From: Verrucomicrobiia bacterium
Lineage (GTDB): Bacteria > Verrucomicrobiota > Verrucomicrobiia > Opitutales > Cerasicoccaceae
DNA: 64,000 bases
Assembly (NCBI GenBank): GCA_030432235.1
Contig: JAUIHT010000003.1
Location: forward strand, 310,001 to 374,000
Direction: 5' to 3'
Shown: piece after piece, positions 58,597 to 62,973 of the stretch
Position numbering within the stretch: the first letter of the stretch is position 1
Layout of the letters: the number at the start of each line of letters is the position of its first letter
The notes under the pieces: model-generated
Told to the model about the DNA's origin: nothing
What the model saw: the letters and a program-made list of their open reading frames with translations, nothing else
The model's database searches: none
Position numbers and translations under genes: made by a program

Positions 58597-59136
58597 ATGA
58601 AGTATCTAAAGACACTGCTACTCGCCCTTACATTAAGCGCCTCGACATCCTTTGCCGCTGTTCTGGTGACCGTTGAACAAGTCGGTGCGGACGTCGTCTT
58701 CAGCTTTAGCGGCAGCCTATTTTTCTTAGGTGAGCCCGATGGAAGTGGGGTCAATGCCGAAGTGGGCGAGACACAATTCCTGTCTTACAACGGCATGTAC
58801 GATACGCACGCATCCGGCGTTCTTTTAACCACGGGCTTATGGACAACGGTTACCACGCTAGGTGGTTTTCCTTCTGGAGATTCATTCAGTTTTTCCTCAA
58901 CTTCCGTGGACGCACCCTTGGGATACTCCTCCGGCTCTCCCCTCAGCGGTACGGCCACATTTGCCAACAAAGATCTCGTTTCAGACATGGGCTTCACGCC
59001 GGGGGATTCGGGCTCGTTTTCCGGAGGCGGCAACACAATCAATTTTACCGTCGTCCCGGAACCCTCCACCTGGGCCACCCTCGCTGGCGTCGCCATGCTC
59101 GGCTTGGCCTGCTGGCGCAGAAAGACAAAAGTCTAA
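58597..59136 (+). CDS. PEP-CTERM protein
   Basis: A 179-residue secreted protein: signal peptide (KYLKTLLLALTLSASTSFA), a core rich in Ser, Gly, Phe and Thr with short beta-strand-like repeats (FSGSLFFLGEPDGSGV, GDSFSFSSTSVD), and the sorting signal VPEPSTWATLAGVAMLGLAC then WRRKTKV. Anchoring or release by an exosortase is expected. The KTKV codons and stop overlap the GAAAGTC-type word repeat that follows. Confidence 0.88.
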   Translation: MKYLKTLLLALTLSASTSFAAVLVTVEQVGADVVFSFSGSLFFLGEPDGSGVNAEVGETQFLSYNGMYDTHASGVLLTTGLWTTVTTLGGFPSGDSFSFSSTSVDAPLGYSSGSPLSGTATFANKDLVSDMGFTPGDSGSFSGGGNTINFTVVPEPSTWATLAGVAMLGLACWRRKTKV

Positions 59137-59152: not shown

Positions 59153-59174
59153 CTTTGCAGAACAACAAGCCGTG

Positions 59175-59196
59175 GCCGCAACGCTGCGGCTTTTTT
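59175..59196 (+). terminator. Rho-independent terminator after the PEP-CTERM gene
   Basis: GCCGCA, loop ACGC, TGCGGC, then six T. Thirty-eight bases after the stop. Confidence 0.85.
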
Positions 59197-60858: not shown

Positions 60859-60890
60859 GCTGTCGGACTTAAAAACACTACTGTTCTACC

Positions 60891-61463
60891 ATGAAAATCA
60901 AAGCCGCTCTCCTCGCTGCTGCCTGCATGGCTTGTGTTAACCACAGCCACGCGGCCATCCAGTTGGAAGTCACCGGCGGCATCAACTCGCCGCTAACCGT
61001 CCAGATTCTTGAAGGGGATGTTTTCCTGACCACGGATGCCGATACCGGAGTATTTCTTGTCGTTTTTGAAAACTTCTGGAATAGCTCCAGCAGCGGTTTC
61101 TCAGGTGGCTATAGCACCGATACCATTTCCATGACGACGGCTACCAGCTCCGCATTTACGGGGGCCTATGTCGGGGGGATTATTACCGCCGCCGATTTAA
61201 CCTTAGGTTTTAACGGGAGTGGCTTTACCAGCGGGCTATCCATGACCCTTGGAACAGGGACACGCACTACCAGCAACAGCCTTATGCTCGACTACACGTC
61301 GATCAATGCATCCGGCAATGCCTATATTTACCGAGATACAGATAATATCGCCTCTGGTCCTATAGCGTGGAGCGCCGTCCCCGAGCCGTCGACCTACGCC
61401 GCGATGTTTGCCACCGCCGCCCTCGGCCTGGCCTGCTGGCGCCGGAGGAAGACGAAAGCCTAA
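60891..61463 (+). CDS. PEP-CTERM array protein 1
   Basis: A 190-residue secreted protein. Signal peptide MKIKAALLAAACMACVNHSH then AA, a beta-rich variable core with Thr/Ser/Gly repeats, and VPEPSTYAAMFATAALGLAC then WRRRKTKA. The signal peptide is near-identical to those of the next two genes, while the cores are unrelated by eye. The last codons and the TAA are part of a GAAAGTC-type palindrome. Confidence 0.88.
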   Translation: MKIKAALLAAACMACVNHSHAAIQLEVTGGINSPLTVQILEGDVFLTTDADTGVFLVVFENFWNSSSSGFSGGYSTDTISMTTATSSAFTGAYVGGIITAADLTLGFNGSGFTSGLSMTLGTGTRTTSNSLMLDYTSINASGNAYIYRDTDNIASGPIAWSAVPEPSTYAAMFATAALGLACWRRRKTKA

Positions 61464-61537
61464 AGACGAAAGTCGAAAGCCCTTCCTGGGCAAAGCCTCA
61501 CCTGCCTTTAGACTTTAGCCTTTCGACTTTCGACTCC
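61449..61537. repeat. GAAAGTC-type word-palindrome between array genes 1 and 2
   Basis: The left arm (61449-61480) reads AAGACGAAAGCCTAAAGACG and onward, overlapping the KTKA-stop codons of gene 1; the right arm (61506-61537) reads CTTTAGACTTTAGCCTTTCG and onward. Imperfect reverse complements. The right arm is followed by CTACACACCTTAACCACACC, also present before gene 3. Confidence 0.7.
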
Positions 61538-61562
61538 TACACACCTTAACCACACCACTACC

Positions 61563-62162
61563 ATGAAAATCAAAACTGCACTCCTTGCCGCCGCTTGCAC
61601 GGCGTTCCTCTCACTCACGCCTGCCCAGGCCATCATCAACTTCTCCGGGGACATCACCGGCAGCGGCGGCACGGTGGAGATTACGCAGTCCTTTGACATC
61701 ACCGTCACCACAGCAGGCTCTGCAACGTACCTAATGCTGGATAACTGGGTGAGCACGAGCGATGGCTCAAATGACGGCATAGACGTGATTCCGGACAGTA
61801 TCAACTACCGCATCAATGGTGGCGCTGTGCAAAGCGTAACCGTATTGGCTATACAAGACAACTTCAACTTTAATTTTTTAGCTATAACAGAAACTGACGG
61901 AGCTTTTTCTTTCATTGAAATCCCATTAGCGGTCAATGACGTTATAACCTTTGAGGCACAAAGCTGGACCACTACCGCTAATGCCACCTGGAACCCACAG
62001 GCCATCCAGGATTACAGCGGCGACGTGTTTCTCATGACCACCGATCTAACAGCGCTGAGCGACCCGACGCCCCTCGTCCCCGAGCCCTCGACCTACGCCG
62101 CGCTGGCTGGCGTGTTTTTCCTCGGCCTGGCCGTGTGGCGCAGGAGAAAGTCAAAAGCCTAA
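61563..62162 (+). CDS. PEP-CTERM array protein 2
   Basis: A 199-residue secreted protein. Signal peptide MKIKTALLAAACTAFLSLTP then AQA, core with ITVTTAGSATYLMLDNWVS and LAITETDGAFSFIEIPL, and VPEPSTYAALAGVFFLGLAV then WRRRKSKA. Same ends as its neighbours, different core. It starts 25 bases after the right palindrome arm with no clear Shine-Dalgarno sequence. Confidence 0.88.
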   Translation: MKIKTALLAAACTAFLSLTPAQAIINFSGDITGSGGTVEITQSFDITVTTAGSATYLMLDNWVSTSDGSNDGIDVIPDSINYRINGGAVQSVTVLAIQDNFNFNFLAITETDGAFSFIEIPLAVNDVITFEAQSWTTTANATWNPQAIQDYSGDVFLMTTDLTALSDPTPLVPEPSTYAALAGVFFLGLAVWRRRKSKA

Positions 62163-62236
62163 AGACGAAAGTCGAAAGCCCATGCAGCGTGCCTCTTGAC
62201 CAAGCTTTAGACTTTAGCCTTTCGACTTTTGACGCC
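62146..62236. repeat. GAAAGTC-type word-palindrome between array genes 2 and 3
   Basis: The left arm (62146-62179) reads GAAAGTCAAAAGCCTAAAGA and onward, covering the KSKA-stop of gene 2; the right arm (62205-62236) reads CTTTAGACTTTAGCCTTTCG and onward, the same sequence as in the previous element. Central loop about 25 bases. Confidence 0.7.
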
Positions 62237-62261
62237 TACACACCTTTACCACACCACTACC

Positions 62262-62831
62262 ATGAAACTCAAAACTGCACTCCTCGCCGCCGCCTGCGCG
62301 GCCCTCCTAACGCTGCCTGCCCAGGCTATCCTTTCGATTACGAACTGGGCCATAACCACCGACAGCCTCTCCTTTGATATCACGGGCGATGCCGCCTCGG
62401 TTGCAACACCCAGCAACAATCCCGACACCCTCTATGTCGGCCCAATCAGCAATGACACCTGGATCAATTCCAGCGGCGGCGCGACATCCTTTTCCGGGAC
62501 GGCAGATGAGGTGGCCATCGCAGGAGCCAACGCTATAGATGTTGGAGGATTCGCTGACTACATTTCTTTTTCGACCGGGGGCATACCCATGGACTTTACT
62601 AACGGTGGCACCATCAGTATATCGGTAAACTTCTCAGGTGTCAGCGGTCAGTTCACCCCCGCCAATATCGATGTGAACGACGTCATCATCTCCTGGGGCT
62701 TCAACACCACGAGTCAATTCCCGGATCCGTCGACGCAGCTGAACACCGTCCCCGAGCCCGCGACCTACGCCGCGCTGGCGGGCCTCGGCGTCATGGCCCT
62801 GGCAGGCCTGCGCCGGAAGACGAAAGTCTAA
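62262..62831 (+). CDS. PEP-CTERM array protein 3
   Basis: A 189-residue secreted protein. Signal peptide MKLKTALLAAACAALLTLPA then QA, a core with repeated Gly/Asn/Ser and DYISFSTGGIPMDFTNGG, and VPEPATYAALAGLGVMALAG then LRRKTKV. The leader CACCTTTACCACACCACTACC precedes the ATG as for gene 2. The ATG at 62262 was chosen for the signal peptide; the frame is open to 62229. Confidence 0.88.
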   Translation: MKLKTALLAAACAALLTLPAQAILSITNWAITTDSLSFDITGDAASVATPSNNPDTLYVGPISNDTWINSSGGATSFSGTADEVAIAGANAIDVGGFADYISFSTGGIPMDFTNGGTISISVNFSGVSGQFTPANIDVNDVIISWGFNTTSQFPDPSTQLNTVPEPATYAALAGLGVMALAGLRRKTKV

Positions 62832-62973
62832 GGACGAAAGGCAAAAGCCCGTGGGGCAAAGTTTTCCGAGAGGTCGTGCCGGTAGGTGCGGCCTTTTTTG
62901 TAAGCACCACACCCATTGCCCCAAAAGGACCCTTCTGCCCTCACCTTTCGACTTTCGTCTTTTGTCTTCCTCC
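62816..62973. repeat. GAAAGTC-type word-palindrome after array gene 3
   Basis: The left arm (62816-62850) reads GAAGACGAAAGTCTAAGGAC and onward, covering the KTKV-stop of gene 3; the right arm (62945-62973) reads CTTTCGACTTTCGTCTTTTG and onward. Between them is a terminator-like hairpin (GGTCG...CGGCC then six T, 62872-62899). The two arms are about 95 bases apart. Confidence 0.6.

Follow-up and report, generated by a model that had tools for sequence, protein, structure and literature searches.

The locus described here lies in a stretch of 64,000 nt from a Verrucomicrobiia genome (GCA_030432235.1, contig JAUIHT010000003.1, positions 310,001 to 374,000), which is referred to as the window. 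It contains three consecutive genes for PEP-CTERM proteins (g1, g2 and g3), a further gene of this kind upstream (g4), and the following associated features, numbered from the first position of the window:

58597-59136, forward strand: g4, another PEP-CTERM gene, 1.8 kb upstream, with an unrelated core
59167-59192, forward strand: intrinsic terminator of g4, within a stretch that matches, at 94% over 35 nt, the one following the PEP-CTERM gene C42:92143
60891-61463, forward strand: g1, PEP-CTERM protein of 190 aa; core family A4; paralogues C42:91531, C37:998140 and, weaker, C8:47727
61376-61634, forward strand: junction repeat, copy 1 (sorting tail of g1, palindrome, leader and signal peptide of g2)
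61455-61535, no strand assigned: heptamer inverted-repeat element 1, whose left arm encodes the end of the g1 C-terminal KTKA plus the stop codon
61537-61562, forward strand: A/C-rich 5' leader of g2, common to g2 and g3
61563-62162, forward strand: g2, PEP-CTERM protein of 199 aa; core family A5; paralogue C7:200121; homologues in six other genomes of the order
62075-62330, forward strand: junction repeat, copy 2 (sorting tail of g2, palindrome, leader and signal peptide of g3)
62147-62235, no strand assigned: heptamer inverted-repeat element 2, whose left arm encodes the g2 C-terminal KSKA plus the stop codon
62236-62261, forward strand: A/C-rich 5' leader of g3, common to g2 and g3
62262-62831, forward strand: g3, PEP-CTERM protein of 189 aa; core family A6; paralogue C39:612851
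62868-62900, forward strand: hairpin and T run after g3, an intrinsic terminator by eye and by fold, with degenerate heptamer arms near 62817-62848 and 62945-62968

The genes g1, g2 and g3 are complete open reading frames at these coordinates. Their C-termini score 27.9, 21.1 and 28.0 bits against PF07589 (curated cut-off 20.7) and 21.7, 24.0 and 20.3 against TIGR02595 (cut-off 16), which bears out the PEP-CTERM tails that an initial annotation of this DNA had placed on all three. The protein starts (MKIKAALLAAAC in g1, MKIKTALLAAAC in g2 and MKLKTALLAAAC in g3) are similar, as had also been claimed, and each of the three N-termini reads, by eye only, as MK..K followed by a hydrophobic run and a presumed cleavage site of small residues. 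The three genes stand in tandem and probably encode proteins that are secreted and sorted by exosortase, each consisting of a signal peptide, a variable core and a PEP-CTERM tail. The same genome holds seven exosortase hits of the EpsH family over the PF09721 cut-off (best E 1.5e-50), and with this number different variants of the tail may each have an exosortase of their own.

The two junctions between the genes are copies of a single block of ~260 nt, which are 80.9% identical over 262 alignment columns (E ~1e-67), including ~100 non-coding nt. The block extends from the V-PEP codons to the point (AQA-I) where the signal peptide is presumably cleaved. The leader within it, CTACACACCTT(A/T)ACCACACCACTACC, had been described as common to g2 and g3, and its two copies do read alike, with one A/T difference. 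On its 5' side, g1 has just 46 nt in common with g2 (60886-60931, 83%, E 4e-9) and has no leader; at the 3' end of g3, the tail matches at 75-76% over 110-121 nt, and a degenerate palindrome surrounds an ordinary terminator. The tail, heptamers and terminator of g4 match g2 (75% over 109 nt) and L001:4144 (72% over 144 nt). A search of the own genome found the junction repeat with its leader only at the two positions in the window, the remaining matches being short pieces of tail or heptamer; silent donor copies with other cores between the same ends, as expected of recombinational antigen-variation cassettes, were not found there.

The cores of g1, g2 and g3 have nothing alike beyond 10-20 nt in DNA comparison, and blastp between them gave no hit at E<=1e-3. 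Near-constant ends, which form one repeat, thus flank middles that differ, as had been noticed from the letters alone. The further statement that the cores are unrelated is correct for pairwise DNA and protein comparison but may not be so for g1 and g2, whose profile comparison reached a probability of 47% and a score of 30.5, whereas 150 controls with shuffled columns scored 18.1 at most. This is a hint that the two cores may be remote relatives, and only a hint because column shuffling also destroys strand periodicity. The comparison of g2 and g3 was marginal (25.3 vs a shuffled-control maximum of 21.8), and that of g1 and g3 gave no similarity. Paralogues of the cores in the own genome, counted after removal of locus L039 (a duplicate of the window genes), are 46% (C42:91531) and 50% (C37:998140) identical for g1, 46% (C7:200121) for g2 and 27% (C39:612851) for g3, and these distant paralogues carry different ends. 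When 273 genomes from the order, the own genome counted, were searched with profiles, the core of g1 was found in 2, that of g2 in 7 and that of g3 in 3 genomes, and the own genome alone has all three. With so patchy an occurrence, the cores are not conserved one-to-one across relatives; it was their one-to-one conservation that the initial annotation had named as counting against its reading. A single-protein scan of a genome-contig collection found no relative, and single-sequence structure prediction of g2 and g3 yielded no usable models (mean pLDDT 36.0 and 36.7).

Neighbouring PEP-CTERM genes were compared across the own genome using 64 genes for permutation tests and 59 genes for tail matches, the two sets differing in added loci and in the rules for starts and tails. 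Six ORFs that passed or were able to pass the loose tail filter and are not PEP-CTERM genes were excluded from the tail-match comparison, and the L024 pair, which has homologous cores, was taken out before the permutation test. Among 13 adjacent same-strand pairs with unrelated cores, the same codon is found at 57% of the tail sites with the same residue, vs 38% when gene positions are permuted, and the tails have a nucleotide identity of 69% vs 53%; in both cases, 0 of 20,000 permutations were as high. When the window trio is excluded, the 10 pairs left have a codon sharing of 51% (95 of 20,000 permutations as high) and a tail nucleotide identity of 67% (0 of 20,000). The 70 nt past the stop codon contain a strong match in 3 of 14 adjacent pairs, vs 1 of 2002 other pairs (Fisher p 1.1e-6). 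The tails and terminators of the C37:827k pair are 94% identical over 149 nt, with 98% identity over the 63 nt after the stop codon, and its cores and 5' ends are unrelated. Counting against a general rule, 10 of the 13 unrelated-core pairs have no long shared downstream DNA. Overall, neighbours exceed distant paralogues in likeness at synonymous and non-coding sites, as concerted evolution predicts. Protein conservation alone was considered as the source of shared ends and ruled out, since synonymous and non-coding sites are also alike.

The ages of tail and core can be compared within one gene pair by counting identical codons at unchanged residues in either part, a test that needs alignable cores and therefore leaves g1 to g3 outside. 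If the tails were conserved as proteins and no more, the synonymous codons in the tail and the core of one pair would have had equal time to change, and no excess in the tail would be expected. Of 15 same-cluster pairs whose cores are homologous, 8 have such an excess (p<0.05), four of them surviving Bonferroni correction, and 7 have no significant one; among pairs of core homologues from distant loci of the own genome, it was significant in 0 of 5. In the best pair (L103), 25/26 tail codons are identical vs 21/67 core codons (p 4e-9); the corresponding counts are 24/24 vs 15/43 for L097:2485/1653, 18/23 vs 21/53 for L097:3374/2485 and 17/21 vs 53/122 for L123. At unchanged residues, the core codons are near background similarity and the tail codons are not. 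The test supports a transfer of tail DNA between neighbours, beyond conservation.

The same sharing of ends was found in adjacent pairs from several related genera, at loci picked for several close PEP-CTERM hits, so that frequencies there are not those of a survey. The most extreme pair found (L103:1868-3951, from a genome of the order) has 3' ends that are 98.7% identical over 224 nt, 5' ends that are 81% identical over 327 columns, and cores with ~30% protein identity. At L105, with three genes in a row, the middle gene has a different core, and its tail and terminator are 91% identical to those of a neighbour, whereas the outer genes, with related cores, have tails that are 79% identical. 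The six genes at L097 have tails up to 98% identical. Several tracts span from the VPEP codons to just past a hairpin with a T run (-85..+63, -80..+59, -81..+60, -80..+56 and -84..+54). The unit of sorting tail and terminator is not universal, since the pair L097:1653/2485 combines tails of 98% identity with different terminators. The ends in the window are probably recent copies of one another and the cores old, and a copying of ends appears to be common among neighbouring PEP-CTERM genes, both in the own genome and in related genera.

With a probability of roughly two in three, we read these patterns as the result of local gene conversion or unequal crossing-over that homogenises the ends, the cores diverging or being replaced. 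Exchange between neighbours, by gene conversion of the RecA type and by unequal crossing-over, would act through the tail, the sole stretch common to every member. The copied unit would often be the sorting tail with its terminator, ~145 bp in length (~85 coding and 60 non-coding nt), and the tract may sometimes also take in the leader and signal peptide. Cores would lie outside the conversion tracts and diverge to saturation, and an unlike neighbour could gain a tail. Core 2 is situated between direct repeats, and a crossover between these would delete or duplicate g2 cleanly, with the frames of g1 and g3 intact. The likely outcome would be a repertoire of surface proteins with working export and sorting signals and varying exposed parts. 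Conversion alone leaves unexplained how unlike cores first became neighbours. The initial annotation had proposed recombination that diversifies the surface, and this survives in part: the tails of neighbours are alike at synonymous and non-coding sites and are often younger than the cores, but the data point to a copying or homogenisation of the ends and not to a shuffling of the cores.

Crossovers in the constant ends might instead exchange whole cores between loci or strains, with diversification as their function. Such swapping of cassettes would suit the direct repeats around core 2, whose borders match the presumed borders of the mature protein, the paralogues that every core has elsewhere in the genome under different ends, and the patchy occurrence of cores across the order. 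We nevertheless regard it as unlikely. The constant ends were never found twice with one core, the junction block with its leader is absent elsewhere in the own genome, and the identities of the core paralogues (merely 46-50% for g1, 46% for g2 and 27% for g3) are so low that no recent swap is visible; moreover, in the within-pair test the ends change and the cores stay in place.

Less probable still is a tandem duplication followed by very fast divergence of the cores under diversifying selection, with the ends kept by purifying selection on the signals for export and sorting and conversion playing no part. The possible remote homology of the g1 and g2 cores and the recognisably homologous cores in many tandem pairs agree with such a history. 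However, selection on the protein does not need the synonymous codons and the DNA past the stop codon, both of which are kept (98% over 63 nt in the C37:827k pair, 98.7% over 224 nt in L103), and tail codons stand above background similarity where core codons are near it.

The palindromes in the junctions have the architecture (AAAGNCN)n, variable loop, (NGNCTTT)n. They had been reported after each gene, which is accurate for g1 and g2, but the one after g3 is degenerate and the palindrome is not specific to PEP-CTERM genes. A strict four-unit heptamer pattern occurs 28 times in the own genome, vs 2 times in a reversed control, and is absent from the 9 other family genomes searched. The element also follows g3, g4 (58597) and the PEP-CTERM gene C42:92143, its arm forming the last codons; in the own genome, PEP-CTERM genes adjoin a minority of its copies. 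In a UvrA homologue with an in-frame element (L065:1509-1533, C37:1216908), query residues 288-327 face just residues 257-271 of 2r6f. A homologue of ValS (valyl-tRNA synthetase; C7:66122) has in-frame elements at L059:1268-1285 and 1623-1647 and extra residues at two places, and in a YfbK-like VWA protein (L061:1501-1597, C8:38000), YfbK_C is matched in two stretches, the better of which stops at the element. These three genes are apparently intact, and the element contributes additional residues to them, for example SKVESRKSK or FDFQLSTF. As the palindrome is dispersed and ends are also shared without it, it is regarded as an element in its own right, and its assignment to PEP-CTERM cassettes was rejected. 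It resembles the Rickettsia palindromic elements (RPE), which, in the part of PMC10969869 available to us, are likewise dispersed palindromic DNA in frame within unrelated protein genes, and appears to differ from them in its short heptamers, its variable loop, the lack of a conserved ~150-bp consensus and the lineage in which it occurs. Of 80 heptamer loci listed elsewhere in bacteria, one has an inverted arm within 160 nt and nearly all are simple tandem repeats, which marks the inverted arrangement as a feature of the own genome. Tandem repeats of CTTTHGD (L139-L218, public genomes) are found in many phyla, including Bacteroidales, cyanobacteria, Flavobacteriia and Patescibacteria.

An element of this kind, once inserted after one gene, might have recombined or been duplicated and carried the coding ends along, making the junction repeat its by-product. 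The element is present in both junctions and after g4 and the gene C42:92143, where it provides the last codons and the stop codon, and palindromes can promote template switching. We consider this origin very improbable: ends are shared without the element in the C37:827k pair and at L097, L103, L105 and L117, which confines it at most to the window locus, the strict pattern is absent from all nine family relatives searched, and most copies in the own genome are away from PEP-CTERM genes. Convergence or chance, by which PEP-CTERM tails are alike everywhere and a family motif was taken for something more, might draw on the 51 PEP-CTERM hits in the own genome and the average nucleotide identity of 53% between non-adjacent tails, but is excluded for practical purposes by the permutation tests and the non-coding matches.

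The array resembles the PEP-CTERM/exosortase (EpsH) system, as far as the accessible descriptions of that system go, in its short C-terminal Pro-Glu-Pro motif, hydrophobic segment and basic tail and in the many paralogues per genome. In the accessible part of their paper, Haft et al. 2006 (PMC1569441) found tails to be more alike within species than between species, which they read as a modular domain having expanded recently, and noted that genes were often duplicated and lost. That part of the paper does not analyse neighbouring genes at the level of DNA, describes no shared terminator unit and does not set the age of the tail against that of the core within a pair, and words beginning with 'recombin' or 'homogen' were not found in what was accessible of its main text. 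The present comparison, made at the level of sequence, would add a DNA-level route to the likeness of tails within species that these authors described (PMC1569441). In the open-access literature we found no paper that treats PEP-CTERM genes together with gene conversion or concerted evolution, although absence in print is unproven, and none on homologous recombination as a means of PEP-CTERM gene exchange, as far as the retrieved text shows.

Gene conversion is known from tandem families of surface genes, such as the neisserial pilin/opa, spirochaete and mycoplasma families. The window array is similar to these families in that homologous constant parts would recombine and exposed parts vary. 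It differs from them in showing no sign of a silent cassette store, an expression site or phase variation; it consists of three complete genes, the shared part is a sorting signal with a terminator, and the cores can be unalignable.

The question addressed here is how, within a lineage, many otherwise unrelated proteins come to have C-terminal sorting signals that are and stay near-identical. Setting the codons of the tail against those of the core in one gene pair makes the spread of sorting signals testable: the signal, often with its terminator, appears to move between neighbours as DNA. If general, such movement would tie the spread of sorting signals to the growth of arrays and to surface variation in environmental bacteria, and would call for caution with protein phylogenies inferred from PEP-CTERM ends. 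As a tentative extension of the conversion reading, to which we give well below even odds, arrays of exosortase substrates might represent an open surface repertoire, in which a portable tail and terminator of ~145 bp, sometimes with leader and signal peptide, is copied onto neighbours, and repeats with borders at the signals allow precise in-frame gain, loss or duplication between close relatives. If true, this would explain dozens of unrelated proteins with near-identical sorting signals in one genome.

A second tandem trio of PEP-CTERM genes is located ~278 kb away (L001:2752-4746, C42:90751-92745), and its middle gene is of the g1 type. The first gene of this trio starts with GTG, and its signal peptide, MKIKTILL, resembles those of the window genes. 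For the PEP-CTERM gene C42:92143, 6 of the 7 best tail-DNA matches (self excluded) are on the same contig, a hint that tails may be grouped by region beyond direct neighbours.
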